Origin: Pteria penguin
Taxonomy: Eukaryota; Mollusca; Bivalvia; Pterioida; Pteriidae
DNA length: 64,000 nt
NCBI GenBank assembly: GCA_035048485.1
Contig: CM068587.1
Coordinates: 42,345,842 to 42,409,841, forward strand
Direction: 5' to 3'
Shown: piece after piece, positions 6,101 through 63,460 of the stretch
Layout of the letters: every line of letters begins with the position of its first letter
How positions within the stretch are numbered: position 1 is the stretch's first letter
Position numbers and translations under genes: made by a program
Notes under the pieces: generated by a model
What the model saw: only the letters and a program-made list of their open reading frames with translations
The model's database searches: none
Told to the model about the DNA's origin: nothing

Positions 6101-9100
6101 AAGGAGGAAAAGCCCGGACAAGCTTTTCCGACCCCGCCCATTTTCTCCCACCCTAGGGGTCTGACCCCAACTTTGAGACTCACATGCACAACTACAAGCC
6201 ACACCCTTTCATATGTGACCATCAAAAGTTTTGTTCCCCCTTTAGTTAAGGAAAAGAAGCCCAGACAATGATGGATGAACGGACGGACGGACGGGCGGAT
6301 GGTACCACAGACGACAGCAGTATAGCATAATAGGCACACAATTTTAAATGCGGGCGTATATAAAAAGTTATACATAAATAGGCCAATAGTTACTTTTTAG
6401 GTAAAACTCAGGTAACAAACATTAGTATATGAAGTATATGTCTAATGACAAATGCTGATTGGGGTATATACTGCTCCAAAACGATGCCCAGTGTTGTTAT
6501 ATAACTGAACTAGTTTGAATAATCCATTAAAATCGCAGTTTCATCGATGTCCCCGTAACGTAATATCAGCCAGGTGAAAAATAATTCAAAGTGCCAGAGT
6601 CGATATCTAGTGATCACCGATAGAAAGAATGGAATCACGTTTACTAAACATGTTGTCCAGTAACAATAAGGCCCATCGGCATCACTATAATTAGTCCGTA
6701 AACACCTTCATTCCACCCTTCATTTTTGTGAAAATTCAATTATGAAAAATGGAGGTATGCTTTAAGTTACCGGCATTTTCCGTAAATACTGGTCTACACA
6801 CCAACAAGATTCATGTGCCATTGTAATCACCATAATTTGATAAACAAATTGAGGAAATCCAAAGAAGTTCGACAGTCTTCAGTCATGTTTACAAACACCT
6901 GTAAAATCACAGGTCAATAAGATGCCGGCTGCCATCACGTGCGCGTCAATTATTCATGAAATCTACCAGATTGTATATTTTTTCATAATCATTGTCTTCA
7001 AAGATATTTTGGACATTAAATGCATCAATTTACACATCACTCTCATCGTTTCCAAAGACTTATTTGAAGAAAGAATCAGGTTTTGTTTATAAATCTGCCA
7101 TCTTGAAATACAAATTTTGATCTCACCTTTTCCTGCATCTTAATTTATGAACCAATCAAATTTAAGGTGACGTCATGGAAATTTTAAAAAAAGGAATTCT
7201 ATCTCCATATATGGAAAGTCTTTTTCATAACGTTTACAAGGATTGGAAGGCTATAGATACGATCTTAAAATAAGCTATAGTCGACCTAGTTGTTACCCGG
7301 AATATTTTAGGGTCAGCTCACAGAGGGTGCATTTGATTCCCGGAATATTCTGGGTTCAGCATGACTAGGGTTAAATATACTATATATGTATAGTACATAC
7401 AGTATGAACAAAACAATTTTCAACTACACAATAAGACAGTTAGGACTTTTTTCCACAGTGAATGTGATGTCATTTTTTTCTGGATCTGAAAATCATGACC
7501 CAAAGCCTTCATCCTGAAAACTTACATCAGTGCCACACCACTCCAGGAATTCTGCTATGACATTGTCCTGCTTCAATTGGAGATTGAAGGCCCCTTCCCA
7601 TTCTGGTTCATATTCCAAATGCATACCAGTTTGTCTTATAACTGCATCCATGCCCTTTAATACCAAGACAGGAATACTTAGTACATACATACAGAAAAAC
7701 TACTGAATTCATTTCACATTTCAATTTTAAGATTTACAAGATTACACAATTTGAAAGCATAAAAACATTTCATAAGTGAAACAAATATTCACTACAATTA
7801 AACCATTTGAAAGTACAGTCAAACTTTGGTTTCAAGAAGTCAATGGAACCACAGAAATTATTTCGATATATAACAGTGGTGGAGATATAAAAAATTTGAC
7901 TTTATGGCCATAAATTGAGGACAGATTCATGAACATATGCTAAACATGTGTCACTGCTATCATATGAAACTTATTGATAGATAAGTGTATACACAGTAAA
8001 TGTACATATTTTTTCTAATACATGTAAAATAATCATTCTAAATCTAATCACACCCTTTGTTGATAGAGATCTTGAAAATATCTTGTAAGTTTGAGAAATT
8101 AAATTGGTTTTTTGACAAGATTAAAATCCAAGGATGGATAGCATTGAAGACATCACACTTTTTTAACTGATGACTCTCATTCATTCATTCATTCATCTTC
8201 AATTTTGTACTTCATAGAAATTAATATTTATTTTCCAATCATAATTTAAAAATGATCACTATAAATAATTATTGTATGCCAAATCACAAAGGCAAGCCCC
8301 ACCATATGTGAATACCTGATCAATTGATCATGCTGGCAGTCTAAAAATTAGAGGACAATACAGGAGGACAAGTCAGTAAGAAGATAACTTTGAGATAAAC
8401 TAGGTACATTAGAACTTTGGAACCTACAAATGTATTTGAGATAAGCATACTATATGACAAATTGCTTATTAACACATCCAATGAAAAAATTTGGAACGGG
8501 TATCTGACTTCGAAATAGTCCAGGTATTTGAGAAGCTGAGTTCAAGATATCAAAGTTTTAACTGTATTGTTATTTTTGATAGATGAAATACGATACATAG
8601 ATTGTACACAACTCAAAACCACAATGATCACAAAAAAAATAATTTTTCCGAGTAAAAACTCACAACAGAATTTCATGATTCTGGAGAGTACTGTACGATA
8701 ATTATCAACTTTTCAATATATCTTGACATTTATGAAAACTGCATTTCTTGCCACTTATTTCAAACTTGAATAAAATCTACTTAAAATCACTTGTACACAG
8801 TATTTTGTGTATAGATCAAAATTTCCACATACCTGCATCATTTTCAGAAGAGATAAGAATGATTTAAGTCCCCTCAGGAAATTTTCTCTGAGTTTTTCAC
8901 ACCAGTCCTCTAGTGATGGTTTGCATATTAAAGCATATCTAAAGTCAAAATCAAAGTCATTGTAAAAGTAATAAGAGCAAATGCCCACAAATTTTCAGCC
9001 ATCTGGCCTTTATCAAATGGAATAAAAATGATAAAGGCCAAGTTGCCGTAATTTGTGGACACTGAGTGTGTCTTGTAACTTATTTAATTCATACTTCACT

Positions 9101-21100: not shown

Positions 21101-24100
21101 AAATACTTACAAATAACTGATACTGCATGCACAGCAAGACTTGTAGTTCCCCTTTCCTTATCAGTATTTGATGGTGAAGAGCCAAACTCCAGTAAAAGTA
21201 ATCAACCAAAACAAACACACAACAAAACAACAAGAGCAACGCCTAGCGTGGCATAATACACCCGTCCCTTACTTTGGACGGGAAGAATGTGAACGTATGG
21301 TTTTATTACCCCCAAACATGGGTATCTTTGGTCAAATGAAATGAAATGAATTTATGAAATATTGAAATCCAAAAGAGTGATCCAAGTCCCATAACTCTGT
21401 AACAACAAAGGGGAATTTGCTCAAAACTGAAAAGTGGCTTCCCCTACACTATTTAAGCATTTTGTGTAAGTTTCATGCAAAACAACTGAGGTTTACTTGA
21501 GTTATCGCATTACATAGCATCTCCATAACATCTTATTATAGTAACAAAGTTTTATTCACTTTGCATGATGTGACCTTGACCTTTGACCTATGACGTTGAG
21601 TCAAAGTCATGACACACCCTTGGGTCCTAAGTAACAATTCTGTGAAATATTATTGAAATCCATGCACAGGGGAAGAAGTTATGGCCCGAACAAGGTTTCA
21701 TTCACTTTGCATGTTATGACCTTGACATCTGACGGTCAAGGTCTTTACACAGCCTTGGGTGCTAAGTAACAATTCTGTGAAATATTATTGAAATCTATGC
21801 ACAGGGGAAGAAGTTATGGCCCGAACAAGGTTTTACTCACTTTGCATGTTCTGATCTTGACCTTTGACCTATGACCTTGGGTCAAGTGTAACAATTCTGT
21901 AAAATATTATTGAAATCTATGCACAGGGGATGAAGTTATGGCCTGGACAAGGTTTTATTCACTTTGCATGTTGTGACTTTGACCTTTAACCTATGACCTT
22001 GGGTCAAGGTTATGATACACCCTTGGGTCCTAATTAACAATTCTGTGAAATATTATTGAAATCCATGCACAGGGGAAGAAGTTATTGCCTGGACAAGGAT
22101 TTACTCACTGAGCAAGTTGTGACTTTGACCTCTGACCTATGACCTGGGGTCAAGGTCATGACACACCTTTGGGTCCTAAGTAACAATTCTGTGAAATATT
22201 ATTGAAATCCATGCACAGGGGAAGAAGTTATGGCCCGGACAAGGTTTTACTCACTTTGCATGTTGTGACCTTTACCTTTGAGCTATGACCTTGGATCAAG
22301 GTCATGGCACACCTCTGGGTCCTAAGTAACAATTCTGTGAAATATTATTGAAATCCATGCACAGGGGAAGAAGTAATAGCCAGGACAAGCTTATCCTGGA
22401 CGCTGGACGGACAACGCCATAACATAATACGCCCCCTCTTGAGACAGGCGTATAAAAATCCAAGAAATCTTAGCATTCTTCCTGTTCAAGTTTGGTTTTG
22501 TAATTTGTCTTGAATTGACTTTCACAAAACCTTAAATCATACAATTAAATCAGTCCTGCTCTCCACTATTACTATCATATCATTATCTTAAAATTTTCCT
22601 CATATAATTGTTTAAGATTTTCTTCTCTTGTGTCTTGTTTCCTGACCATTGTAATACCTGATTTGGCAATAATTCCCTGGAGCCATGATATCATCCTGAG
22701 AGCAAAGGCTTGATGAGCTACTACGATAGTATGCATGACTTGAACTTTCAGAGGTTTACTCCCATGTCGTGAGGTGCTATGCTGAAAACAAAATTTATGA
22801 TAATAATTTCAATTGAAAAATCTAATTTACACAGATTTTTAATAATTATAATACATTTATACAAATATCAATGAAGTATTGGTTCCTATGGATAATTAAA
22901 AGAGATACATATCATTTTTCTGACTTTGAATGTGACAGCAATTCCAGACACTTAATATGGTAAAAGATGAAGTTGTGTTAATACAATAGCATTTTCTGCT
23001 TCTGTATGTTTTCAGATGACCAATCACTTTCACAAAATACATGTATTTACATGTATATTGTTGGTTTGTTGGTTGTTTTATTCGTGTTTTACATCACTTT
23101 CAACCATTTTTCAATTATATTGTGACATAGAAGCAGGAGGTGACCAACCTCTTAAACATAGTGATGCAATCTGGGAATTGAACCCCGATGGTCGGTACAT
23201 GTATTGAATTTCGTGGTATCACAACACAACAATGTCTGTCCAAGGTATGACTGTGGTGTGAAGTAATTAAGTATTGTGACCTCATCTGATTTAACAATTT
23301 CTTGTGCATAAATGGAAGGGTCAATTGAGACAAATTATAATTAGTGAGAGCAAAAATATGAGACAACTGTGATACTGCTAGATCACAGTTACAGTGGAAA
23401 CCAAAACAATACTTTTAATACTTTTAATTTTTAATTTATTACTTATAAATACAGAGTGTAAATGTCATCGATCTAATGATATCTGATATTTGACTGATAC
23501 CAGTGAAGAATCTGTGACAACGACTTACTCTTATCAATTATATACACAAGTTAAATATACATGCACTGTATTAAATATATAATTTCATCTGTGTGCATCT
23601 ACATTAAGTGAATGATGGTCAGCAGCTGTATATATTTCAAATTTAACAAAAGACTGATTTTTTCTTTCATCAACAATAACATCAAATACAACATATAAAT
23701 ATATAAAAGGACATTAAGCACAAGTATTGCAACATATCTCAAACTCTTTTGTGTCTCTTGACATTGGCTCAGCAGTTCAACCTATGTAAGAATTAATATT
23801 AACAGCAGTCTTTTTTTATCAAGCCAGGGCCAGGGGAAACAAACACTCATTTCATTTTGGCTCAATATGCATATTGTGGTGAAATCAAAGGTCGACAGTC
23901 AGACAAATTGTACTTGATTTTAGGTTGTCAAGAGCAGTTTTAGGTTGTTTTTGATGTTTTACACTTCTATCATATCTAGTAACATAAGACTGAAAGGTTT
24001 TTTAAGAGGCATAAGCAGATCGTTTTATCATACAGACAAAAGATTTAACATGATAGTGTTTACTAGCGAATCTATCTTAACTACTGCTGATCTGTTGATT

Positions 24101-27100
24101 AAAATAAACCTTGTAAAGGATCCTGTTAGAAAAGCAGTTCTCTGACCAAACCCACTCACACTAATGTAGATTTCTCTGCTTCCACTTATACATGTTCCAA
24201 CTTATTTAAGGACTAATATCATTAGTTACAGAGTCATCTGCAGGGGTGATACAGTGTGATAATGGGTGCATAAACTTGTATGAGGCAAGGTGAAAGCCAA
24301 TGATCTATTAATACTTGTGAGATTTCAAATAATAACTAGAGCAGTCCTAACAGGACAAATACCCCCCGCGGCAACAAAGTAGAAACATGCAATAATTCGT
24401 CCCAATATACATCACTGGTATAAGTGTAATAGATGTCCCACTTACAATCACATTTTGAGGAATAATCAATGAAAACAATGTTTACCCAGTGTGTCTATTG
24501 TGACCTTGACCTTTGACCTATGACCTTGGTTCAAGGTCATGACACACCCTTGGATCCTAAGCAACAATTCTGTGAAATATTATTGAAATCCGTGGTCAGG
24601 GGAAGAAGTTATGGCCCAGACAAGGATTTACTAATTGTGTCTGTCATGACCTTGAACTTTGACCTATGACCTTGGGTCAAGGTCATGACACACCCTACCC
24701 TTTGGTCATGAGCAACAATCCTGTGAATCATTACCATAATCTATCCACCCAATAAAAAGATATGGCCGGGACACGATTTTAACAACCAGGTCCACAGTGA
24801 CTTTTATATTTGACCTTGGCAAGGTCATGACACACCCTTGGGTCATGGGCAACAAACCTGTGAAATATCTAAATCCATCCACCCAATAAAAAGGTATGAC
24901 CTAGACATGATTTTAACAACCAAGTTCATAGTGACCTTTACCTTTGACCTTGGGTCAAGGTCATGACACACTCTTGGGTCATGGGCAACAATTCTGTGTA
25001 ATATTATCTAAATCTATCCACCCAATAAAAAGATATGGCCTGGACACAGTATTAACATTCAAGTACACAGTGACCTTGACCTTTGACTTATGACCTTGGG
25101 TCAAGGTCATGACACACCCTTGGGTAATGGGTAACAATATTGTGAAATATTATCTAAATCCATCCACCCAATAAAAAGATATGGTCCGGTCACGAATCAG
25201 GGCGGACGGACATGGTGATTCCTATATACCTCCCCAAAATTCATTTGCGGGAGGTATAATAACAAAGCAATCTAAAGAGCACTGATTTCATAAATGTAAT
25301 AGATGTGATGTTATGACGTCACAGACACAATGTAAACAAACCTGATACAGATTCTATATCAGGTGGGTTAAAGACATGATACAAGACAGTATTTTGTCGA
25401 AAATGACCACTGAAATCGCTGCATTCTTATCAGAAATGGGATAAAGTGAAGCACTCCCATTTCAAGCCCCTCAACCTAAATTCCACATCATACTATAGTC
25501 CAAAAACTATGGTACATGTATATCTGTAGAAAAATAAAACTATATCTGACCTCTATCACATGTCTGGCTTTTTCACAATTTGAGAAAGTGCCTTCCCTTA
25601 CATTACTTCTTCCCTGTAAAAGATATACAACATTGCAACTGAGCAGCTTTCTATACACACTAATTTTTATGTATTTGACCAGAATTAAAACTAATGCCCA
25701 TTTTTTAACTGACTTGATAATCTTCAAATATAGAGACAATTTATTAAATACATTTACAAAATACAATATTGATAAAAAGATGAGTGTGCAAATATTACAT
25801 GAAGTGGATCATTACCTCTCTATCCACTATAGTTGCATACTCAATAGCTTTCTTGTTGGTACAGTCTACTGCTCTTTGTAACGTGCCTATCACCTAAAAA
25901 GTACATAGATGCATGTATATGTCAATTCTTTATTACCTATATGTTTATTAAATGCTTATTTTAAAAATTTTCATCACTTAAAACAAGAGGCCAACCTGGG
26001 CCTATATCGCTCACATCAGCACTATTTGCTCATCCAAGAACAACAATTACATCCTGCTTGAAGAAATTCACAGATACATATATTCTCTTGCTTACTATGT
26101 TTTTTGACAATTGACAAAGGACTATAAGCTTGCTTCTGTACAATGAATATATCAAGAGAATGATACAAACTATACTTGAAAAATATTTTAAAATATCAGA
26201 ATACATTTTTCCATATTTATTTTCTAAAATAATCTAAAATCTTGTTTTGATGTAAAATGAACTCCCCAAAAATGTTCACCTTTAGCAGGGTTTGCTTCCC
26301 TTCAGCATACCAGGTCTTGCTAATATCAAAATTAGAAAAAAGGTCATAAAAACAAACAAACTAAACTCAGACATTAAACTTTCAAAAAACTCTTCAAACA
26401 GATATATCCTACTAAAAGTTGGTAAATAAATGCTTCATGACTTCTTTAAAATGACACAGAAAATGTTAAAAATTAGAATTTTAATGTGTTGGTGTGACAC
26501 AAATGGCCCTGCTGGCAGCTAAGCTAGTGAAATATAATTGCCAGAGAACCAATATTTTCAAGAATTTGTAATGTTCAAGGGCAATTACTCTCTCAAAAAT
26601 TACTGGAACACACCCATATTTGAACTTGACCCGCATTTTAAAACGTCTATATACTGAATATCAATTTAATCCATCACAACTTCAGTGAGGAGTTGCAAAG
26701 ACAAGGCATTTTAAGACGGACAGACAACAGCATTGTAGCATAATAGGCCCACATTTTATGTGGGTGTATAATAATGTTTTGCCACCACTAGGGCTAGAAC
26801 TGCTAACCTTTACTCACTAACTTTTTAGCTCAGGAAACAAAATGTTAAACCAACACTTTCAAACAACCCTCCAAATAGAGTATTTCAATTATATGCTTAT
26901 TTTGCTTCTCTGAAATAAATCAATAAAAATACACTAAAATATATAGAAATGACAAAGTAAAAAGAGACATAAAACTAGACTTTTAATGTGTCGGTGCGAC
27001 ACAAATGCCCTCACTGGCAGCCAAGGTAGTGAAATATAATTGCCAGAGAACTAATATTTAAAATATTTATTTCAAGAAATTTTTAATGTTCAAAGGCAAG

Positions 27101-49604: not shown

Positions 49605-50500
49605 CCAAGAATGAGATGTTTACTTCTCTTTGGTTTCTAGTCTCTCCTCTGATTTCTGTAAGCTAGTATTGTCTACTGTGGTGTGTTGAGTTCCTCTGTA
49701 TTATAAGCATGAGATAGTTACTTCTCTTTGGTTCCTAGTCTCTCCTCTGATTTCTGTAAGCCAGCATTGTCTACTGTGGTGTGTTGAGTTCCTCTGTACT
49801 ATAAGCATGAAATGTTTACTTCTCTTTGGTTCCTAGTCTCTCCTCTGATTTCTGTAAGCCAGTATTGTCTACTGTGGTGTGTTGAGTTCCTCTGTACTAT
49901 AAGCATGAGATAGTTACTTCTGTCTGGCTCCTAGTCTCTCCTCTGATTTCTGTAAGCCAGTATTGTCTACTGTGGTGTGTTGAGTTCCTCTGTACTATAA
50001 GCATGAGATAGTTACTTCTGTCTGGCTCCTAGTCTCTCCTCTGATTTCTGTAAGCCAGTATTGTCTACTGTGGTGTGTTGAGTTCCTCTGTACTATAAGC
50101 ATGAGATAGTTACTTCTGTCTGGCTCCTAGTCTCTCCTCTGATTTCTGTAAGCCAGTATTTTCTGATGTGGTGTTTTGAGTTCCTCTGTACTATAAGCAT
50201 GAGATAGTTACTTCTGTCTGACTCCTAGTCTCTCCTCTGATTTCTGTAAGCCAGCATTGTCTACTGTGGTGTGTTGAGTTCCTCTGTACTATAAGCATGA
50301 GATAGTTACTTCTGTCTGACTCCTAGTCTCTCCTCTGATTTCTGTAAGTCAGTATTGTCTACTGTGGTGTGTTGAGTTCCTCTGTACTATAAGCATGAAA
50401 TGTTTACTTCTCTTTGGTTCCTAGTCTCTCCTCTGATTTCTGTAAGCCAGTATTGTCTACTGTGGTGTGTTGAATTCCTTTGTACTATAACACCAGCTAC
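49605..50500. repeat. 98-bp minisatellite, about nine copies, directly 5' of GDPGP1
   Basis: The unit has ACTATAAGCATGAGATAGTT, ACTTCT(C/G)T(T/C)TGG, CTAGTCTCTCCTCTGATTTC, TGTAAGCCAGTATTGTCTAC and TGTGGTGTGTTGAGTTCCTC. Copies differ at few sites. The array ends about 30 bp before the acceptor-like TTACATTTCAG of the first recognised exon. Confidence 0.95.
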
Positions 50501-50532: not shown

Positions 50533-50604
50533 ATGGAACTTCTAGAGTACTCTACTGAAGATCTGATGAATGTAGGAACATGGAATGGAAAAGAACTCAG
50601 CAGG
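50533..50604 (+). CDS. GDPGP1: GDPGP1 exon 1 (first recognised coding exon)
   Basis: ATG at 50533, just after an acceptor-like TTTACATTTCAG (50516-50526), so a 5' untranslated or upstream coding exon is possible. It encodes [20 protein letters not shown] then ELSR, and ends at AGG|GTTGTT, a weak donor. The (Y)...DLM...W pattern fits the vertebrate N-terminal region. Confidence 0.72.
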
Positions 50605-53600
50605 GTTGTTTTATTTGCATATTTCTTAAATTAATGGTGTTTGTTGATCCACTAGAATAGTGCTGTTGCAGTGTAACAATACACATAGATCTATTACATA
50701 TTTTTGTCAGAAAAAGTGCAGGAAGTGATATGTACAGTACAGTCCGGATGGAACTTTGAATGCCCACTGACCACAGTGGGCAGTCCACCTGAAATTTCAG
50801 TGGGCATTAGGAGTGGACATTTACTTGAGCTATCAAGCTCTCCACTTACCTGTACGTTAATTCTAACTGACTCTTACAAGAATGTCCACTGTGTCCAGTG
50901 GACATTTTTAATGCCCATTCTAAAAATGCCCACTGGCCAAATTAAGTTTCACACGGACTGTACTGTAAAACTTAAAAATATTTTAAATGCAAATGTGGTA
51001 ATTTGATACAAGTGAAAACTACTTTGTAGGACTTCAAGGGGAGTAATTATAAAATATTTAGTTGCTTGTCTCTTTAAGGTATTGAAATAATTCATGTATA
51101 TGTACATTTCATTTATTTCTGTGTGGATCCTTTAATTTATAGTTTGACACTTTACTGAGAACTAAGTGGGACAAAGCAATGTCAGAGGGACATTTCAGGT
51201 ATCAACTAGATAAAGTGGAAACTAAAATAATTCCAGGGTCCAAAAAATATGTAGCACAGGTAGGTATGTCTAAGCAACCACTAGAAGAAATTAACATACA
51301 GTTTACTCTTGATAAGTAGAACTTGAAAGGCCCATGAAAAACAGTTTACATTTAGCAAAGTTTAAGTTAGTACTGAATGTTTTAAAAAAAAATTAGAATG
51401 TTTTGATTAAAAGTATTTGACTTTGTAAAATACATCTTAATATGATTTTGTTATGGGGCTGCTTGACATCCTCTTAAAATCATATCTTTAAAAGGCACAC
51501 CAATGATAACTTATAATCTCATATAAATGAGAAAATGTAAATTGCAGTTTAATGTGTTTCAGTTAAATGTAAAGCGAGCAACAGAGAGGAGAAAACCACA
51601 ACAAATTACCACGGTTAACCAGGACTTTGATTCAAATCAGTTCAACTTCACTAAAATTAAGAAGCCTGAAATACTATTCAGTATACAAAATAAGAATGAG
51701 GAGAGCAGTCAGTGCAATGATAAGGTAAGAAACGGTACACACGGGAAAGCAGTCAATGCAATGATAAGGTAAGAAACAGTATACAGAAGAGAGCAGTCAG
51801 TGCAATGATAAGGGAAGAAACAGTATACAGAGGAGAGCAGTCAGTGCAATGATAAGGTAAGAAACAGTATACAGAAGAGAGCAGTCAGTGCAATGATAAG
51901 GGAAGAAACAGTGTACAGAAGAGAGCAGTCAGTGCAATGATAAGGGAAGAAACAGTATACAGAAGAGAGCAGTCAGTGCAATGATAACGGAAGAAACAGT
52001 ATACAGAGGAGAGCAGCCAATGCAATGATAAGGTATGAAACAGTATACAGAGGAGAGCAGTCAATGCAATGATAAGGGAAGAAACAGTATACAGAGGAGA
52101 GCAGCCAAAGCAATGATAAGGTAAGAAACAGTATACAGAGGAGAGCAGCCAATGCAATGATAAGGTAAGAAACAGTATACAGAGGAGAGCAGCCAATGCA
52201 ATGATAAGGTAAGAAACAGTTTACAGAGGAGAGCAGTCAATGCAATGATAAGGGAAGAAACAGTATACAGAGGAGAGCAGCCAATGCAATGATAAGGGAA
52301 GAAACAGTATACAGAGGAGAGCAGCCAATGCAATGATAAGGTAAGAAACAGTTTACAGAGGAGAGCAGCCAATGCAATGATAAGGTAAGAAACAGTTTAC
52401 AGAGGAGAGCAGCCAATGCAATGATAAGGTAAGAAACAGTATACAGAGGAGAGCAGCCAATGCAATGATAAGGGAAGAAACAGTATAAAGAGGAGTGCAG
52501 CCAATGCAATGATAAGGTAAGAAACAGTTTACAGAGGAGAGCAGCCAATGCAATGATAAGGTAAGAAACAGTATACAGAGGAGAGCAGCCAATGCAATGA
52601 TAAGGTAAGAAACAGTATACAGAGGAGAGCAGTCAATGCATTGATAAGGGAAGAAACAGTATACAGAGGAGAGCAGCCAATGCAATGATAAGGGAAGAAA
52701 CAGTATACAGAGGAGAGCAGCCAATGCAATGATAAGGTAAGAAACAGTATACAGAGGAGAGCAGCCAATGCAATGATAAGGTAAGAAACAGTTTACAGAG
52801 GAGAGCAGCCAATGCAATGATAAGGTAAGAAACAGTTTACAGAGGAGAGCAGCCAATGCAATGATAACGTAAGAAACAGTATACAGAGGAGAGCAGTCAA
52901 TGCAATGATAAGGGAAGAAACAGTATACAGAGGAGTGCAGCCAATGCAATGATAAGGTAAGAAACAGTATACAAAGGAGAGCAGGAAATGCAAAGATAAG
53001 ATAAGAAACAGTATACAGAAGAGAGCAGTCTATGCAATGATAAGGGAAGAAACTGTATACAGAGAAGTGCAGTCAATGCAATGATAAGGTAAGAAACAGT
53101 TTACAGAGGAGAGCTGACAATGCAATGATAATAAACAGTATACAGAGGAGAGCAGCCAATGCAATGATAAGGTAAGAAACAGTATACAGAGGAGAGCAGT
53201 CAATGCAATGATAAGGTAAGAAACAGTATACAGAGGAGAGCAGTCAGTGTCATGATAAGGTAAGAAACAGTATACAGAGGAGAGCAGTCAGTGTCATGAT
53301 AAGGTAAGAAACAGTATACAGAGGAGAGCTGCCAATGCAATGATAAGAAACAGTATACAAAGGAGAGCAGCCAATGCAATGATAAGGTAAGAAACAGTTT
53401 ACAGAGGAGAGCTGCCAATGCAATGATAAGAAACAGTATACAGAGGAGAGCAGCCAATGCAATGATAAGGTAAGAAACAGTATACAGAGGAGAGCAGTCA
53501 ATGCAATGATAAGGTAAGAAACAGTTTACAGAGGAGAGCTGCCAATGCAATGATAAGAAAAAGTATACAGAGGAGAGCAGCCAATGCAATGATAAGGTAA

Positions 53601-56600
53601 GAAACAGTATACAGAGGAGAGCAGCCAATGCAATGATAAGGTAAGAAACAGTATACAGAGGAGAGCAGTCAGTGCAATGATAAGGTAATAAACAATTTAC
53701 AGAGGAGAGCTGCCAATGCATAAGGTAAGAAACAGTACACAGAGGAGGCTTTTCCTTTTTGAAGATAAAAACATCTGTAAAGGACATTCTCAGAATTGGC
53801 AAACTACATTTAAAGAATCAATTGGACCAGCTGATCTACATAGTGAAGGTTTCTACATTTCCATCTTTGCAACAGTTATTGTGCTATATTTGTATAAAGT
53901 TTTACCCAAGTTGACTTCATATTATTTGGGCCACTAAATAAGTGTCCATAATCACTATTGTATAGAAAATTAGCATGTAATTTCAATTAAAAGAAAATTT
54001 CATTTATAGGTTTGATGACATTTGGGTGTTTTATTCTTCTGAAATGTATTGACAATTTTGTCCCTTCTTGCTATCTGTTGCTGAGATGATATAATAACCA
54101 TGACATTTGTTTATCTGGCTTCCATTATTTATACTTCTGAAGTCTTTTACAACAGAATTAACTGTCATTTGTATTCTTTATGATGTAAGGAAGAACTTTA
54201 CAAATTTTTAATGTCATTAGTCAACTGGTTACACAAAAGGATTTGCAGAGCTTTTCATTAAGTTTCTCAATTTATGTCATTTATGTAATGTATATATTGA
54301 TGGCATCATTGAATGCAATGAAATTTCGACCTTCCGAAGCATATTCAGTAAAGGATCTTTTATATGTCAACATCTACCATGACATGGAGCCTCAGTTTTT
54401 ACTGTTTTATTTCAGAGACAGGAAACCAATGTGTCATTCCCAGAGATTAGTATGTTAAAACAGCGCTCGCTCAAGATCGTTCTTTAGTATAAAACCGATT
54501 GAAGGGTTATTTTTCTGTTTACTTCCTACCTTTCATAAGATTTATTCGATACTTTACACATGTATTACAGTTCACTAATATGTGCAATGAATTTTCAACT
54601 TAAAGTCAAAGGTTACGGCTACTATTGAAACTGTGCAAATGCTTAATATCTCCTTTGTTACTTTTAGAATCCATTTTGGCATTCTCTACATTTCAATGAT
54701 TGCGTCTTACCGTGGCTGAACTTTTAAATTTATAGATTTTATTTGGCATGCTACAAGTGTAGAGACACACCTGTTTCAGAGCTTATGTTGGAAAGTTTTC
54801 ATGTGGACTACATGATACATGTAATGATCACTGGATTGAAATAATATTTTCAAGCTTACTGTTCAAGCATTTAATTGTTGTCAGAAGTGCTTGGACCTCA
54901 ATCTTTATTTTAAGACTGGGAATATTGTAAATTGCATTGTTACTTGAATTCTTTTTTTCAAATGCTTACTAATCTTTCTTGTTGCAGGTAGAAAATTTAG
55001 TGATCGTCAATGTAAGTCCATTAGAGTATGGCCATGTGCTGGTAGTACCTGATGTGAATGGTATGCGACCACAGCTTTTAACTGAATACTCTATCAGAGT
55101 AGCAACAGAATGTATGCTTCTTAGCTCTCATCCGTAGGTAGAAGTCTAGGTGGAATTACTCACTCATCATTTAGTATAATGTTTAATTTCCATAAGATTT
55201 ACATTTCTTGTGTGCACACATAAATTTTTGAGACTATAATAAGCATTTGCTACATAAAGAGACCCAATTGGTAGAGTTGGCTAAAGTGCTGTCATGTTAT
55301 TTTGTGATAAGTAGGAAGGTCTGTCAGTATTCTAGCGGAACGTTATGATTTTTCTGGGTTACCACTCTTGTTCTACTTTTTAACATTGGCTGCTGTCATA
55401 TACATGTAAATGAGGTAATCTTGGTATGGCGTTTAACAAAGACAAAAGAATTATACTGTATAAAATTTTAAAAATTATGATTTTGTTTGTCATCTGTCTG
55501 TCTGTTAGGAGTTACACTTTGTAAAATGGATAGCAGCCAACGTATTTGTTCTTTTTAACACTCTATTGTATTTACATGAGTATTAGTATTATTTGTAATA
55601 TGTATATGTTTTTTCATACTCATTCTCCTAATTCATTTTGCTGTTAGTGCTGCAAATCTCTACCATTTTGCCTGTCTATTTATAGAAACATGATATTAAA
55701 TGTCGTAGAATTCAATATCATATACAGTGTGTTTATATACATTTGATACATTTTGTACAGAAGATAAGCATGTCACACTTTGAAGTGATTGGATATAGAT
55801 GTATAAAGAGCATAGCTCAAATGGTTGTATACTTGGCTTGTGGTCAGGATGTGTGGGGTTCGAGTCCCATCAGCGACGTGTGGATGTCTTGTTTTGGGGA
55901 TTTGAGACATCTTAATGTTATAATGTTGGTGTGATGTAAAACAAGAAACAAGGACAGAAAAACTTCTTACAGTGGATTGAAGAAAATTTGAGATTTGCTC
56001 GGAGTCATTAACAATTAATTAAGAGTTTAAGCAATACAGAAGACTAGCATTAATGTTCACTGATTAAGTTATCTGAACAAGACATCAGATAAAGTATGAA
56101 AACTATCGGATAATGTATGAAAACTATCAGATAATGTATGAAAACTATCAGATAAAGTATGAAAACTATCAGATAACGTAGAAAGGAATAGCAGAAATTG
56201 TATTCAAAACTTGGAAAAGCAATGCTGTTCACATCAACAAACATTTACTTGTCAATATTTGATTCTCATCTTTCCTTTTAGAGGTTTCCGGATAGGCTTT
56301 AACAGCTTATGTGCTTATGCCTCAGTGAATCATTTACATTTCCATGCCTACTATTTAGAACATCAACTATTTGTGGAAACATGTGTAAGCCAGTTTTATT
56401 TTTAAAATAAAATACTATGTATTCAAATCAGATCAGGAATTTTAAACTAGAAGTCAATGTTATTTTGGGTTTTCATAGTAAGACAAGTTGTATTGAATGT
56501 GTAAAATAAATAGATGTATATTAAGACAAATGGATTCTTAACTCTTCCACAGTGATAAACAATACTCTTCCACAGTATTAAAGATACTCTGCCACAGTAT

Positions 56601-59600
56601 TCATTAGGTACATTGTAGATGATACTTCTAATGGATATTTAAAACAATCAATAGTAAAGATGGAGTGGCATAATTTACAGCTTTATTATGATACATGTAT
56701 TATAAATCATACTATATAAATATTACAATTTTGACAGGTTGACATGGCATATTGTCACCCCGAGAAAACATTGGTGACCGAGGCGAAGCTGAGGTTGACA
56801 ATGTTTTTCGAGGGGTGACAATATGCCGTGTCAACCTGTCAAAAATGTAATATTCATTTATTATACCGAATGTCATACAATATACAGAATAAACAACAAT
56901 TAAGTGTGAGTATTAATTTAAGATAATTTAAGATATTTGTCTACCCTTTGTTTGAATGTGGTGTGTGTATCATCTTGTGATATACTGATTAATAAGGTAA
57001 CTACAGAATAAACCTCTAATCGCGAGTTTGCAACAACCATTTTAAATCATTTACACACGATCATTGATCAGCTGGAGAGTTTCATTAATATTGAATTGTT
57101 ATTACAGGGTAAACGCGACGTCACAATGCATTTTGACGTCAAAACGTGACGTAAAATCGTGTGACCATGTTCTGAGACATCCGTTCTAATGTCATTTTAC
57201 TATAAAAGATCCACCATACTTTTCTCGGTCTATGAACCTTACACACATCAATTTTGTGCATGTGACATTTTCTATGAATGTCACCCTCTCTATATATCCT
57301 ATATAAAAAAAAACGTGTGACATATTTGAATGTCACACGATTGATTGACCAATCAAATTACAGGAAATTAACATGAGGTATAATAAATCAAATTAACTCA
57401 CATAGGTGATACTTCTACATAAGTTTATGTTGCATGTTTGTTTTGGATAACAGATATCTTCTAATTTATTGCCATTCTTCAGTAACTGTAATACTTTTTA
57501 GCTCACCTCACAAAGTGAGAGGGAGCTTATGCTATCACCCAGTCGTCGGTGTTGATGTCGACGTCTGTCCGGGCAATAACTCGAGAACTATTGTAGCTAG
57601 GAAGTTTAAACTTATATGGATGATGTATCTTTATGTATAAATGTGCATGCCTGTTTCAGATTTAGGTCATGACCTATATTTTCAGCTTCAGTGCACTTGT
57701 AAGAAAAATTTGAGCAAAATGTTAAAAAGTTTTATTTTTTCATTTGGACAGCTAAGTAGTCCAAACTTGCACAAATGGTGTATCTATGAAGGCAAAGATG
57801 GATGCTGATTTCAGATTTAGGTCATGACCTATATTTTCCGCTTCAGTGCACTTGTAAGAAAATTTTTTAGCAAAATGTTAAAAAGTTTTATTTTTTCATT
57901 TGACCAGCTAGGAAGTTCATGCTTTATCTTTTTCATTTGAACAGCTGGGAAGTTAAAACATGCAAAAATGCTGTATCTTTGTATGTAGTGTAGTTTTCTT
58001 GTTAGGAAACTTTGAGCAAAATGTTAAATAGTTTAATTTTTTTATTTGGACAGCTAGGAAGGCCAAACTTGCACAAATGCTGTATCTTTGTATGTAGAGA
58101 TGGATTTAAGTTTCAGATCCAAGTCATGACCTATATTTTACACTTCAGTGCACTTGTTGAAAAGAAAGCAATATGTGAAAAAGTTTTATATTTTTTTTAT
58201 TTGGACAGCTACCAAAGTTCTTGGTTCTGCTATTGGGATTATATTATGTTTTATTGGCAAATATGCTATGAGGTGAGCTTTGTAATCTTTGATTACTCTA
58301 CCTTTTTTTTAAACTTTGATTGTTGATTGTTTTTACTTTTTAGCCAGTCAGTCATTTAGAAGGTCCATTATATGAACTAGATGTCATGCCATGCAAAGGA
58401 TTTGCATTCCAACTTCATGGAAATGATGTCAGTACTTTATGCAGGTATACAATTATATTATGTAACTGCTTAATTTCCTCACTACCAAATCTGTGTCGCT
58501 ATATTTTAATATTTCTGATGACAAACTTTTGGAAAATTCTCTCTTTATTAAATCCTATTAGCATAGTCATAAATGAAAATACTGTCAAACTTTGATATCT
58601 TGAAGTTGGAGGGCCCATAGAGAAACTTGGAAATATTATTGCTCCAGATAACCAAAATGGTTATAAATCACAAGACTTGTTGACAAACATGTGTTATATA
58701 TGTGCTGTTGTTAGTATGTGAGACTTATTGATTAAAATATGTGTATTTATAGTTAATGATATTCTTAATAGAAAATATGTATAAGTTTAATCATACCCTT
58801 TATTGATAAAGTTCAAGAGAATAAAGTTTGAAAAAGCATTTTTGTATGGCCATAACTTTTTATTCTTAAATGGATTTGAATAATATTTCACAGAATTGTT
58901 GCTAAGGACCCAAGGTTTCATCATGCTCTTGAAACAAGGTCATATCTGCAAGGTCAAGTTCACAGTGCATATGATAAGTAAATCTTTGTCCGGGCCACAA
59001 TTTTTTACCCCTTGCATGGAACAGTGATCCAATATTTACATAAGAAAGGTTTCGCACCTAAGGATATGCCTTCTGATATGACTAGCAACACTAGGGAAAG
59101 ATGCCCCTTCAAATGCTACAGTAAAATGTGGGTGGCTGTCATTGTTGCAACCCCAGAAACGGTCAATAAAGTCCATGATATTGTTATGACTGACAGGCGA
59201 GTTACAGAAAGATATATAGCCAGTACTGTTAGCATTTCCCTAAGAAAGAGTACATTTCATTCTGACAGAGGATCTTGTAATGAGATAACTTTCAGCCAAT
59301 TGAGTACAAAGACTTCTGACAATTGATCAGAAGCACATCAGATGCATGTTGTCGTGTGCTAATCTGAACCTTTTAGAGGTAGACCTTCCTAATTGTCTTC
59401 AGAGATGTGTTGCTGTGGATGAAATGTAAGTCCATGATTTCACCCCAGTGGCCAAACAACAGTTTAAACAATGGAAGCACCCTGGCTCACCCCAGTCAAG
59501 GAAGGCAAAGACTGTTCCATCAGCTGGAGAGGGTATGGCCTCGGTTTTTGGGATGCTGATGGTATTCTGATAGGAGATTATCTCCAAAAGGGACAGACAA

Positions 59601-62600
59601 TCAATGGCAGATAATATGTATCACTTTTGAGGGAGTTACAGGAAAACACTAAACTCAAGCACTGGGGAAAACTTAGTACAGGTGTGTTCTTCCACCAGGA
59701 CAATACCTCTGTTCACAAGTCTGCCATTGCCATTGCTGCCATTAACGAGTGTGGCTTTAATCTGTCTTGTTCGCTTGATCTCGCTCCATCAGACTTTCAT
59801 CTATTTCCAAAACTGAAAACAGCCATTTCTGTTACCCACTTTCAGTCAGATGATGACGTTAACATGCAGTGGAGAACTCTCTGAACGGTCAAGAAATGGA
59901 CTTCTTTAAAAATGGCATTGAGGCCCTTAAACATCACCCGCAAAAGTGTATAAATACTGAAGGGGATTATGTTGTAAAATAAAGAAATATGTCCACCAAA
60001 TTTCAAACCTTTATATATGAGGCTCACAACATATCAATCAACCCTGGTAGCCAGGCATTTTGCGATATCAGTGTTCAAGGTATCAAAGTTTGAATGTAAC
60101 ATTACTTAAACTTTGTGTTATTGTCAATTTGTTTAATCCAAGATTCAATTCGAATAAGACTTTTTCTTTGTAATTTTCATAAGAGTAGATTATGAATCAG
60201 ATTTTTTATTTTGAACAAGCAGTTTTTCATACATTTATTCCCTGTTACATGTATCTTTTAAAATAGAATTTCAAGCATCATATATAACAGCAATTTGTCT
60301 TCATATAATTATAAGAGATAGGACTAGATTTAGAAGTATGAAAATAATAGCAAATTTTCAGGCACACATTGATGAGAAGAGTTCTGTTTTCCTATGAATG
60401 ACAAGGTGGTAACTACATTATCTACATGTACCATTGTAAGATTTAAGTAGAGAAGTTATCTTGTTTCAGAGGGACCAAAAACAATCACTGAAAGATTAAT
60501 TTTGGCATGATTACAAAGTAAAATTAAGTTTGTGGTGAAGGTATTAAGAATTATATTTATTATTTATGTTTAGCTTTGTGGTAAGTAAGTGATGTTTAAG
60601 ATTCACTGTTAGATGTACACAAGTGAAATGTTTTTAACACTCATAGCCTACCTTCTGTGAGACATGTGACAAGTATTGGTTGCAAGCAGGAGATGCTTGC
60701 TGATCTTATTCCCTTTCAGGGGGCACCTGATCTTATTCCCTTTCAGTATTTTCAAATATACCCCTAAGAAGATGATCTTTGGCTTGTTTTCACTGTGTTT
60801 TTCCTTTTTGTTGATTTTGTAAGCCCTACAGTATCTTGATATTTGGAGTACTGTCGTAGTTTTCCTGTCATGTTATAAATGAAATGCATAAAGCTATTGT
60901 TGTATTTACCTCTATTATAACTATAAGTGACAGAATACAGAATTCATCCTGAGTTATATCTGAGCAAGATCCTGTTTTGGTAAATTGAAAGTGCTACATG
61001 TACATGTAGCTAGTATACTTGACGATGTTAGTCTTTTAGGCACTCTTCTTACAATGCTTACTTTTTCCAAGTCCAGCTCTATCGTCGATACAACTCCAGT
61101 TTAATTAAAATCTGTTGTTCTTGATCTGCTTCCATGTCTTAGGCATGGAAGCAGGCCAAGAACATTGGATTTGAATTAGATTGATATGATTCATAATGAG
61201 AACCTATGAGAATATTTTGCAATGGAAGAAAATGAAGAGGAAAATTTTACAAGTGATATAATTTGTACCATAATATATGTCCAAGCTCCAGAGAAACGAC
61301 CATCAGTTGGGAAAATGTAGTTATCAGTTCTTATACCATATACTACCGGTATATATTCCATAATACATGTCAATTGAAGAAAGTACGTATACTATGATTA
61401 GTATTATCAGTATGGTAATTTCTATTATTATATCCCATTTAGAGTTACCAGAGAGCATAAAGTATTTGACCTGTGTGTTTATATTATGTCTTCAAATTTT
61501 CGCTAGGCTGAACTTTGTTGACACTATAGGTATTTGTGTTTGTCATTTACTTCTTGTTTTCATCATTATTTTTTTTTTACTGCAGTACCATTCATAAAGT
61601 TGCACAGTATCTACGTGAACATGAAATTGCTCATAATCTGTATATAACAAAAGGAACAGTGTTTGGGGAGGATCCATCAAGTGACAACAGGACTCTCAGA
61701 TTTTATCTATGGCCAAGAAAGAAAGTTGTTGGTGAGTATGAAACGCTATTATCATAAGATGTTAAGCCAAATAATTATTCCTGTATTTTTAAGAAAAATT
61801 GTCTTTCCAGACCAGAATCAATGGGAAAGATATGTCTAGTGCATTAAAAATGAAAGATTCTCAAATCTAAGTTGTCTTTGTACAGCCCATTCTTCATAAT
61901 TATGTCACTTTCAAGAGACAACTTTCCTTGGGGAAAATGACAGTAGATTGAATTTTCTATCCAAAATTCAAGGAAAAGTAAATACAATTTATACCAGTGC
62001 ACATAGTATTTTTATGCTCTTTAATCAATATTTGAAATTTTTACTACAGAACATAATATAAACACTTTTCATGTAATATAGCAAAGTGGAAGTAATAATG
62101 TAAAAGACTGCCGATTTTAACATTTGTCACAATTCACACTGTAGCTTGAGGTCTTGTCATTGATGTTTTGCGCAAATGTTGCAATATAAGGGATGTATTA
62201 AATAGTACAAATTTTGATCTGTGGGAAAAAAAATGTGGCATAGGAGAATGATGGTATATTGAAAGGTGAAGCAACAGAGTAGACTGTAGCGCGAGTAATG
62301 AGGAGCTCCAGTTAAACGTAAAATAAAATCACAGTGTACTTGAATCAGGGATGTAAAAACCAAATTCAATTATGATAAGTTTAAGTTAAATGTTTTAGTG
62401 TAAGCAAAAATCAACTGTATTGGAAAATTATGATACACTTTATATTGTATACTATGCTAAGTTGTTTTCTTTCAGATTTTGATAACAATGCACCACTTGT
62501 GTTTGTCCCAGGTTTTCCAGAGTTCGCAGGTCATTTTACTATACGTGGTAAGTGTATCCTTACCCATACTTAGTCTAAAACACTTTTGTTTTAGGTATAA

Positions 62601-62660
62601 AAGACGTAGCTGCCTTCAATGCTGCAGTTGTAGAACTTGGGGGACATCTTCCTATCAAGA
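50533..62660 (+). CDS. GDPGP1: GDP-D-glucose phosphorylase 1 (GDPGP1-like), multi-exon, 3' end outside
   Basis: Cytosolic enzyme converting GDP-D-glucose plus phosphate to GDP and glucose-1-phosphate. It is a relative of plant VTC2 GDP-galactose phosphorylase in the HIT/GalT-like superfamily, thought to remove mis-formed GDP-glucose. Exons: 50533-50604, 51143-51259, 51563-51724, 54988-55133, 56282-56384, 58344-58444, 61586-61731, 62476-62547, 62595-62660; all junctions are phase-consistent. They encode about 328 residues against about 385 in the human protein. Diagnostic stretches: [60 protein letters not shown] (HxHxH-type active site, middle His predicted nucleophile), [15 protein letters not shown], and ELGGHLPIK. 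By family comparison, about 40 C-terminal residues are missing on an exon beyond position 62660. The N-terminus may extend into an upstream exon. Confidence 0.95.
50735..50965. mobile_element. MITE (231 bp) in GDPGP1 intron 1, TA-flanked
   Basis: CAGTACAGTCCGGATGGAAC is mirrored by TTTCACACGGACTGTACTG, with TA on both sides. The interior holds several TGCCCACTG / CAGTGGGCA and GTCCACT / AGTGGAC palindromes. Confidence 0.9.
51143..51259 (+). CDS. GDPGP1: GDPGP1 exon 2
   Basis: 39 codons, phase 0-0 (acceptor TTTATAG, donor CAG|GTAGGT). It encodes [20 protein letters not shown], then [12 protein letters not shown], equivalent to FD..L...W......G.FRY.L.....ILPG...FVAQ of the vertebrate enzyme. 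Confidence 0.93.
51563..51724 (+). CDS. GDPGP1: GDPGP1 exon 3, source of the 44-bp splice-site minisatellite
   Basis: 54 codons, phase 0-0 (acceptor TGTTTCAG, donor AAG|GTAAGA). It encodes [40 protein letters not shown], then [14 protein letters not shown]. The vertebrate enzyme has the same FDP.QFNF.KI...E(V/I)LF block. The last roughly 40 nt and the donor are the first unit of the following array. Confidence 0.95.
51680..53750 (+). repeat. 44-bp minisatellite of about 47 units made from an exon-intron junction
   Basis: The unit is GAGCAG(C/T)CAATGCAATGAT, AAGGTAAGAAACAGTATACA, then GAGGA. It matches the end of exon 3 (CAGTATACA, a 10-nt interruption, GAGGAGAGCAGTCAGTGCAATG, here cut for length) plus its donor AAG|GTAAGAAAC. 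By my count about 30 units keep a GT at the donor position, 12 have GG, four carry a 5-bp deletion that removes the GT, and one has GA. Because 44 is not a multiple of three, reading past the first donor reaches a stop within the second unit (51770). Confidence 0.95.
53751..54987 (+). other. Rest of GDPGP1 intron 3
   Basis: AT-rich sequence ending in the acceptor TTTCTTGTTGCAG at 54987. No repeat recognised beyond the minisatellite. Confidence 0.6.
54988..55133 (+). CDS. GDPGP1: GDPGP1 exon 4
   Basis: Phase 0 to 2 (donor CC|GTAGGT). It encodes [20 protein letters not shown], then [12 protein letters not shown] and ECMLLSSHP. The (I/V)NVSPLE(Y/W)GHVL.VP motif is the signature strand of the family. 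Confidence 0.96.
55805..55950 (+). mobile_element. tRNA-derived SINE, head 3 type
   Basis: AGCATAGCTCAAATGGT (A box) and GGGGTTCGAGTCCCATC (B box), then a body ending TGTGATGTAAAACAAGAAAC, a tail reminiscent of the other two SINE families here. It lies in GDPGP1 intron 4. Confidence 0.82.
56085..56185. repeat. 21-bp tandem repeat, about four copies
   Basis: The unit ATAATGTATGAAAACTATCAG is repeated with small changes in GDPGP1 intron 4. Confidence 0.85.
56282..56384 (+). CDS. GDPGP1: GDPGP1 exon 5, active-site exon
   Basis: Phase 2 to 0 (acceptor TTCCTTTTAG, donor TGT|GTAAGC). It encodes [20 protein letters not shown], then [19 protein letters not shown] is the HIT-type histidine motif that carries the nucleotidyl intermediate in this superfamily. 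Confidence 0.97.
56700..57385 (-). repeat. Foldback repeat with palindromic hairpin and CRE-like sites, copy 2
   Basis: The palindrome at about 56733-56848 has GACAGGTTGACATGGCATAT and ATATGCCGTGTCAACCTGTC, with a longer loop than in copy 1. The body to 57385 is the reverse complement of 2690-3120 (CACACGATCATTGATCAGCT, TGACGTCAAAACGTGACGT, TGATTGACCAATCAAATTAC). It lies in GDPGP1 intron 5. Confidence 0.85.
57495..58275. repeat. Dispersed repeat with about 145-bp units
   Basis: Opens TTAGCTCACCTCACAAAGTG and GACGTCTGTCCGGGC. Three or four units follow with AGGTCATGACCTATATTTTC, CTTCAGTGCACTTGTAAG and AATGCTGTATCTTTGTATG. It belongs to the same broad class as the GGACGG-ended repeats, in opposite orientation. 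It ends about 70 bp before exon 6. Confidence 0.82.
58344..58444 (+). CDS. GDPGP1: GDPGP1 exon 6
   Basis: Phase 0 to 2 (acceptor TTTTTAG, donor AG|GTATAC). It encodes [20 protein letters not shown], then [13 protein letters not shown], corresponding to the ...L..LP.PGF.F... region of the family. Confidence 0.92.
58582..60096. mobile_element. Tc1/pogo-like MITE carrying a nested mariner
   Basis: The left end CTGTCAAACTTTGATATCTT is inverted at the right (GGTATCAAAGTTTGAATG), with TA on both flanks. The outer sequence is related to the 7816-8564 element. The middle holds a piece of the AATTCTGTGAAATATT-type dispersed repeat (about 58880) and the mariner below. It lies in GDPGP1 intron 6. Confidence 0.8.
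58990..59985 (+). pseudogene. Degenerate mariner (Tc1/mariner) transposase
   Basis: Translated pieces in changing frames follow mariner transposase order. HTH part: [36 protein letters not shown] and IASTVSIS. Catalytic part: VDEM (first Asp), [22 protein letters not shown] (second Asp), [15 protein letters not shown] (third Asp, DD34D spacing type), FFKNGIEAL and GDYVVK at the end. Multiple frameshifts and stops make it non-functional. The family is recognised from motifs; the subfamily is not determined. Confidence 0.92.
60097..61585 (+). other. GDPGP1 intron 6, remainder
   Basis: AT-rich. A short direct repeat (CTGATCTTATTCCCTTTCAG, about 60700 and 60728) is the only structure noted. Confidence 0.55.
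61586..61731 (+). CDS. GDPGP1: GDPGP1 exon 7
   Basis: Phase 2 to 1 (acceptor TTTTACTGCAG, donor G|GTGAGT). It encodes [20 protein letters not shown], then TKGTVFGED and [13 protein letters not shown]. This matches ...YL..HEIAHNLF(V/I)TRG... and ..VILW.RK of the family. Confidence 0.97.
61732..62475 (+). other. GDPGP1 intron 7, nothing recognised
   Basis: AT-rich intron between two secure exons; no repeat identified. Confidence 0.6.
62476..62547 (+). CDS. GDPGP1: GDPGP1 exon 8
   Basis: Phase 1 to 1 (acceptor TTCTTTCAG, donor G|GTAAGT). It encodes [20 protein letters not shown] then FTIR. This stretch is longer than the vertebrate equivalent, as often seen in invertebrate and plant relatives (family knowledge). 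Confidence 0.9.
62595..62660 (+). CDS. GDPGP1: GDPGP1 exon 9
   Basis: Phase 1 to 1 (acceptor TTGTTTTAG, only 47 bp after exon 8; donor A|GTAAGT). It encodes [20 protein letters not shown] then IK, matching IKD..AFN.A..ELAGHLP.K. Read through unspliced, the frame gives Ser-Lys-stop. About 40 more residues are expected on a further exon that I did not find before 64000. Confidence 0.92.
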
Positions 62661-62764: not shown

Positions 62765-63460
62765 CAAAAGTTCCTAAGATTGAACCAGGACCCATAGTCA
62801 TATCAGTTGTGTGTCTTATGTTGTAAATCAGGACCCATAGTCATATCAGTTGTTTGTCTTATGTTGTAAATCAGGACCTATAGTCATATCAGTTGTGTGG
62901 CCTAGTGGATAAGGTGGTCGGCTCGTGATCGAGAGGTCCTGGGTTTGACTCCCGCCCTGGGAACAGCGGTGTGCTGTCTTTCAGATGAGACAGTAAAAAC
63001 CGAGGTCCGGTGTCATGGTAGACGGGACATGTAAAAGATCCCTTACTGTTTCGGGTGGGTCCGTAGCAAAGGTCTAAATTTCTATGCATTGCATCAGGCA
63101 GATGCCTTCACCATATACATGAAATAATCCTGGAGCGACGTAAAACAATAATCAATATATCAATCAATGTGTGTCTTATTTTGTAAATCAGGACCCATAG
63201 TCATATCTGTTATGTGTCTGATTTTGTAAATTAGGACCTATAGTCATATCAGTTGTGTGCCTTATTTTGTTAATCAGGACCCATAGTCATATCAAATGTG
63301 TGTCTGATTTTGTAAATTAGGACCTATAGTCATATCAGTTGTGTGCCTTATTTTGTTAATCAGGACTAATAGTCATATCAGTTGTGTGTCTGATTTTGTA
63401 AATTAGGACATATAGTCATATCAGTTATGTGTCTATGTTGTAAATTAGGAGAGGCTTACT
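62765..63460. repeat. 43-bp minisatellite, about ten copies, split by a SINE
   Basis: The unit AATCAGGACCCATAGTCATA, TCAGTTGTGTGTCTTATTTT, GTA is repeated on both sides of the SINE at 62890-63170. Units right of the SINE alternate AATCAGGACC and AATTAGGACC. Confidence 0.9.
62890..63170 (+). mobile_element. tRNA-derived SINE, head 2 family, inserted in the 43-bp minisatellite
   Basis: GTGTGGCCTAGTGGATAAGG (A box), GGGTTTGACTCCCGCC (B box), then a body with AAAAGATCCCTTACTGTTTC and CAGATGCCTTCACCATATAC. The tail is GGAGCGACGTAAAACAATAA and (ATCA)n. Same family as 42317-42563. Confidence 0.93.

Follow-up and report, generated by a model that had tools for sequence, protein, structure and literature searches.

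A minisatellite built from an exon end and its 5' splice site in the GDPGP1 gene of Pteria penguin, and similar donor ladders elsewhere in the genome

Within a 64,000-nucleotide stretch of the Pteria penguin genome (hereafter the window; C8:42345842-42409841 of an 838 Mb assembly in 49 contigs), intron 3 of the GDPGP1 gene opens with a minisatellite whose 44-bp unit joins the end of a coding exon to its 5' splice site, such that copies of the splice donor follow one another down the intron as a ladder. We regard it as probable that this array was born by slippage at the exon end and is tolerated since the first donor wins, leaving the later copies largely silent. The recurrence of donor ladders across genes of this one genome is clear, and is the most interesting point of the analysis.

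Structure and origin of the array

Tandem Repeats Finder places the array at positions 51698-53747 of the plus strand, with a period of 44 bp, 47.1 copies, 91% matches and a score of 3295, the highest among 23 rows for the window; chance is excluded as its source. The array starts 27 bases before the end of coding exon 3 (51563-51724, plus strand), a 162-nt exon that runs from phase 0 to phase 0 behind a tgtttcag acceptor, aligns to the GDPGP1 of Pinctada, Ostrea and other molluscs, and ends inside the first array unit. The first 27 bp of the array are coding, and its first, partly coding unit holds the native donor, GATAAG/GTAAGA (the slash marking the exon boundary; GTAAGA at 51725-51730, the intron starting gtaagaaac), which is presumed to be the donor in use. 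An initial annotation of this DNA had described a 44-bp minisatellite made from an exon end and its 5' splice site, with the last part of exon 3 and its donor as ancestor of the unit; the repeat analysis bears out the first statement, and the second agrees with the position of unit 1, which covers the final 27 nt of exon 3 together with the donor at 51725.

Downstream of the genuine site lie 46 donor positions (51769-53730, plus strand), 29 with GT and 17 dead. Among the decayed sites, 12 read GG, one reads AT and four have lost 5 bp at the donor; all are still recognisable as copies. Because the deletion accompanies a GCTG variant, the four probably represent one event that was copied. Counting the genuine donor, 30 of the 47 units have kept GT, matching an earlier estimate of about 30, and the full AAG/GTAAGA is found in 27 (26 of these downstream). 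The description of about 47 donors in a row is thus right for donor positions and too generous for donors, given the 17 that are dead. Alignment of the 47 units yields 29 distinct sequences, whose distance from the unit consensus (deletions counted by column) is 0-3 columns for units 8-29, 2-5 for units 1-7 and 0-10 for units 30-47; low divergence of the middle units is what would be expected of an interior homogenised by exchange. When a 201-bp probe (51600-51800) was compared with this genome, all 20 matches at E <= 0.001 fell within C8:42397441-42399588, and at that search sensitivity the array sequence is unique to the GDPGP1 locus. On the minus strand, the array also yields a 239-codon open frame (window 52353-53072) that encodes a Leu/Ser-rich peptide over and over; it arises from the repeat itself and is no evidence of a gene.

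Inspection of the array borders suggests a simple route to its birth. GAGGAG stands at both edges, on the exon side at 51698-51703 and on the intron side at 53742-53747 (both plus strand), where unrelated intron follows, and a single duplication between GAGGAG sites 44 bp apart reproduces the unit exactly. The order of events we infer starts with a tandem duplication of the stretch across the boundary of exon 3 and intron 3, brought about probably by slippage or by unequal exchange at a pair of such sites, after which the array would have expanded to 47 units. The variant TACACA, confined to the first and last copies (the others mostly carry TATACA or TTTACA), looks ancestral, as expected of old array edges. 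If the one-step origin is true, an array-free form of the intron would read gtaagaaacagtacacagaggagg. The initial annotation had instead derived the unit from pieces of the exon separated by 10 nt. As it described, CAGTATACA does sit in exon 3, 10 nt ahead of GAGGAG; its value as a trace of ancestry is doubtful, since shuffling the exon 1000 times by a first-order Markov model gave an exon-unit match of at least 9 bases in 47 cases, and we take the motif and gap as probable chance. An origin by 10-nt deletion was set aside on these grounds and because the GAGGAG microhomology covers both edges without any deletion, making the gapped ancestry the less economical of the two.

Donor choice along the ladder

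The array, its exon, the donors and the predicted fate of the reading frame can all be read from the DNA itself. Intron 3 spans 3,263 bp (51725-54987, plus strand), about 2.0 kb of which is array, and exon 4 (54988-55133, plus strand; 146 nt) begins with GTAGAA. In protein alignment exons 3 and 4 join as in homologs, with the frame running on into exon 4. The gene model predicts that, whichever of the 46 later positions served as donor, translation would meet a stop after residue 132 (46/46): for unit 2 the stop is made at the exon 4 joint (AGG TAG), and for the other 45 it lies in read-through sequence (AGG TAA). This prediction was made with a model that included a since-dropped exon at 62476-62547, which lies 3' of that stop. 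Contrary to the claim that every donor but the first shifts the frame of the lengthened exon, the extension is a multiple of three at 15 of the 46 positions (8 of the 29 with GT). What the claim implied nevertheless holds as a prediction, in that no later donor would give a normal protein, and with 29 downstream GT sites the copies qualify at sequence level as potential decoys. Since all later donors meet one fixed stop, leakage would produce nonsense transcripts rather than variant proteins. When the read-through peptide was searched against a protein database, its five matches (the best at 66% identity) included no product from this species, and no same-species transcript evidence was seen through the protein database searches.

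Against this background, the spliceosome most likely picks the first, exon-proximal donor nearly always, because that site is the first to be transcribed and gives the normal 162-nt exon. The later copies would be largely silent, and rare use of a later GT copy would add at least 44 nt and run into the stop after residue 132, with decay of the leaked mRNA as the outcome we infer. Exon definition usually has a limit of about 500 nt. Were exon 3 held to about that length, only units 2 and 4 and a weakened unit 8 would be GT competitors, as units 3, 5, 6, 7 and 9 are dead. The GDPGP1 array is, on this account, probably tolerated repeat DNA.

Arrays of this kind have human precedents. Whereas GDPGP1 has 47 units of 44 bp, intron 7 of human F7 has five to eight units of 37 bp, and for F7 both copy-number variation and donor use are known. 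The number of F7 intron 7 repeats is polymorphic (PMC4183524), and only the most upstream 5' splice site is normally used; downstream intronic cryptic donors are activated when the first donor is mutated, and the resulting transcripts encode no functional protein (PMC6627357). The variable number tandem repeat (VNTR) in intron 18 of ABCA7 has a 25-bp unit and lies beside exon 18, whose donor it takes in, the GT of that donor forming the first two bases of the VNTR; retention of one unit occurs at about 2%, shifts the frame, is subject to decay and is constant over array length, while skipping of exon 19 rises and expression falls as the VNTR lengthens (PMC5954066). Among human decoy donors generally, nearer ones are used more often, with only a modest trend on the intron side (PMC8964760). 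Like F7 and ABCA7, the GDPGP1 array starts at a coding exon end and has the native 5' splice site within unit 1, and each unit carries a donor or a decayed copy whose downstream use is predicted to truncate the protein (46/46). The ABCA7 array differs in having some 12 to 427 C-rich 25-bp units, and its length effects were measured on next-exon skipping and expression, not on use of downstream donors. The exon-end donor VNTR is thus a known kind of element, to which the GDPGP1 array adds, and the closest precedents favour, by analogy, splicing from the first donor over the use of any copy. In the accessible parts of the open-licence literature searched, no donor-bearing minisatellite from molluscs or Pinctada was found; an earthworm paper there deals with intronic repeats, and its accessible passages describe no donor copies.

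Several points weigh against this account. First-donor use is carried over from mammalian precedent, and the downstream copies offer a donor in much the same exon-like context, so that strength alone does not mark out the first. The donor GT is, moreover, among the most damaged dinucleotides of the GDPGP1 unit (30 of 47 intact, against an adjacent-pair mean of 0.90; 5th percentile), and its loss is commoner near the exon, with 3 of 8 intact in units 2-9 versus 26 of 38 in units 10-47 (Fisher p 0.12). Such near-exon loss hints at a cost of decoys; the difference is not significant, and may reflect one variant spread by exchange.

The ladder might instead act as a copy-number rheostat, in line with what the initial annotation proposed: later donors would compete with the true one, and the number of intact units would set the share of nonsense transcripts and hence the level of GDPGP1. 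In keeping with this idea, 26 of the 29 downstream GT donors are AAG/GTAAGA like the genuine site, the flanks are purine-rich and exon-like (the array is 72% purine), every downstream donor has its built-in stop, and the longer ABCA7 VNTR goes with lower expression (PMC5954066). In ABCA7, however, one-unit retention stayed constant over array length and it was exon skipping that varied (PMC5954066), F7 normally uses its first donor only (PMC6627357), and five of the eight units nearest exon 3 are dead, leaving few close competitors. We consider a rheostat unlikely.

Rather less probable again is an effect on exon definition like that of ABCA7, by which the array would alter exon 4 inclusion or intron retention and leave donor choice alone. 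The ABCA7 VNTR, which also starts at a donor, raises next-exon skipping with length (PMC5954066), and in GDPGP1 exon 4 begins 1.24 kb past the array and, at 146 nt, would shift the frame if skipped. Folding of three stretches of the RNA, on the other hand, revealed no unusually stable structure (z -1.49, -0.46 and 0.16), which tells against such an effect and also leaves unsupported the proposal that RNA structure hides the downstream donors.

Donor ladders at other genes

A genome scan for three AAGGTAAG motifs at 25-50 nt spacing gave at least 17 distinct arrays, these 17 being drawn from the places listed and examined, which reach no further than the early part of contig C2. In each array the sequence up to the first donor was read in every phase; 17 of 24 open segments (at least 20 residues) were compared with Pfam, and PDB searches covered five of the 17 loci. 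Homology-supported exon ends start four of these arrays, in PDE5-, ICT1-, SMPDL3- and BHMT-like genes. As in GDPGP1, each of the four opens at a coding exon end and repeats that end with its donor about 16 to 49 times; unlike in GDPGP1, the GT is nearly always kept (PDE5-like 18/19, ICT1-like 49/49, SMPDL3-like 28/32, BHMT-like 14/15). The protein family spans the array in the ICT1- and BHMT-like genes, and in the PDE5-like gene a later exon of the same family follows it.

The ICT1/mL62-like array (L041; 5929-8498, C1 about 80.40 Mb; 52 bp, about 49 units, 96% matches) is a cleaner donor ladder than that of GDPGP1. It starts at an exon encoding GGPGGQNVNK, and the next exon (VNTKVEIRF) lies about 460 bp past it; the first exon matches RF-1 at E 1e-5 alone and at 7e-9 when joined to the next. 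Retention of GT in all 49 units points either to robust choice of the first donor or to a young array. The PDE5-like array (L040; minus strand, 5562-6487 in sense orientation, C1 about 80.28 Mb; about 19 units) is supported by PDB entry 9lss (E 2e-19) and by a later exon matching PDEase_I (E 4.6e-6); a sub-threshold Pfam match of its first exon to PTS_IIB (E 0.021) was taken for chance. In contrast to GDPGP1, the 48-bp unit keeps the reading frame, which stays open over 276 nt, and splicing at one of the first few downstream donors would therefore insert 16-residue repeats instead of a stop. The SMPDL3-like array (L032; 38 bp, about 32 units) starts at an exon whose match to PDB 9k2e (E 5.3e-11) runs up to the donor; it had no Pfam match, and a motif search found no next exon. 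For the BHMT-like array (L043; 47 bp, about 16 units), the exon joined to the next matches S-methyl_trans (E 1.9e-10; PDB 2.1e-5), whereas on its own the exon falls short of the Pfam threshold (E 0.035) and the family was not recovered from PDB.

The remaining AAGGTAAG arrays are less certain. One is weakly cadherin-like (L036), all 24 of its PDB matches at E <= 1 being cadherins (best E 0.0066) with no Pfam match. Another matches a leucine-rich repeat (L044; E 2.4e-9) ambiguously, since its 39-bp unit preserves an open frame from end to end of the array, which may itself be coding. Three (L029, L038 and L045) have an open frame after a plausible acceptor, as judged by eye without homology. 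No exon was seen in the other eight of the 17, of which L031, L034 and L039 have open frames of 32-49 residues. With CAGGTAAGT as motif, eight of 16 listed arrays were read, and L046, L048, L051 and perhaps L053 have by eye an open frame to the donor; four of their peptides searched in Pfam and one in PDB gave no significant match.

Places with the motif outnumber those with its reverse for AAGGTAAG (1302 vs 307), CAGGTAAGT (379 vs 162) and CAGGTGAGT (286 vs 156), these places not being independent. Counted as arrays among the places listed, the figures are 11 vs 10 for AAGGTAAG (C1 up to 79.8 Mb) and 16 vs 1 for CAGGTAAGT (C1 to C3:18.0 Mb). As the two array counts disagree, are not normalised for motif frequency and take no account of exon ends among the control arrays, the claim made here is limited to recurrence and does not extend to enrichment.

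Donor retention was compared with the mean retention over all adjacent nucleotide pairs of the unit in ten arrays taken to be exon-anchored: GDPGP1, the four homology-supported loci, L036, L044 and the three judged by eye. GT intactness does not depend on distance from the exon, either in these ten pooled (49 of 54 in units 2-7 versus 158 of 180 later; p 0.64) or in the eight other arrays pooled (32 of 35 versus 88 of 94; p 0.70), which argues against general selection against decoys. Such a pattern is what arrays largely neutral for splicing would show; heavy donor decay is seen in GDPGP1 only.

The same comparison bears on whether the copies serve as extra U1-binding sites, acting as an intronic element, for example against premature polyadenylation (telescripting), or in some other selected role. 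Such a role could account for the full AAG/GTAAGA kept in 27 of 47 GDPGP1 units and for GT retention slightly above the mean adjacent pair in eight of the ten exon-anchored arrays, four of which keep it in every copy. Yet a search for three consecutive intact AAGGTAAG is biased towards intact copies; the same small excess is found in five of the eight arrays for which no exon was seen; GT is nowhere exceptional (percentiles 0.0-0.61 across the ten arrays) and falls below the mean in GDPGP1 and L038; and the GDPGP1 intron is only 3.3 kb long. A selected role of this kind is very improbable. Least likely of all is an assembly artefact in which a shorter repeat was collapsed or expanded. Assembly errors do usually fall in tandem arrays, but 29 distinct unit types stand in a specific order among the 47, the window has no N, and 2 kb fits within one long read.

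Taken together with a tolerated array in GDPGP1, the other loci allow a broader and tentative proposal, which we think possible and no better than that: 5' splice sites would be a recurrent minisatellite seed in this genome, giving tens to hundreds of donor-ladder introns tolerated by first-donor choice, with ladder length and the decay of near copies tuning productive mRNA in some genes. Donor choice among identical neighbours has so far been studied on few natural cases such as F7, and the several genes here in which some 16 to 49 nearly identical donors follow one another constitute natural experiments in which sequence and strength are near constant and position varies. Minisatellite birth at exon ends goes beyond a couple of human genes, and annotators and users of long reads should expect introns with donor ladders.

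The GDPGP1 gene model and other repeats in the window

GDPGP1 lies on the plus strand and heads towards the right end of the window, its 3' end being beyond the traced exons. The protein has 846 homologs at E <= 0.001; among the best 120 of these, the top match is a partial Pinctada imbricata record (77% over 79% of the query, E 4.9e-135), followed by oysters and scallops at about 55-61% identity, and the homologs listed carry PF26216 and/or PF26217. The hand-built protein, whose model held one spurious exon, had no match in Pfam at E 0.001 and none in PDB, and the name GDPGP1, already given in the initial annotation, is accordingly based on the protein homologs, which support it along the gene. 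Besides exons 3 and 4, the model comprises a putative first coding exon (50533-50604), less certain because of its weak donor; an exon at 51143-51259, in phase and aligning with homologs; and exons at 56282-56384, 58344-58444, 61586-61731 and 62595-62660, mutually in phase and likewise aligned (all plus strand). A candidate 72-nt exon at 62476-62547 was dropped, being absent from eight of nine aligned homologs; the ninth (P0001, partial) ends there.

Other repeats accompany the gene. A 98-bp minisatellite of nine copies (window 49607-50490), most units of which carry CTGTAAGC, ends some 40 bp before the putative first coding exon; an exon origin was not seen for it. More minisatellites (21, 22 and 43 bp) lie within or adjoin GDPGP1 introns (window 56084-56184, 56541-56601, 62786-62899 and 63168-63450). 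Elsewhere in the window are tandem arrays of about 122-147 bp units (5610-6268, 21766-22389 and 24500-25184), the latter two of which share a CCTTGAC-rich motif and possibly belong to a dispersed satellite family.

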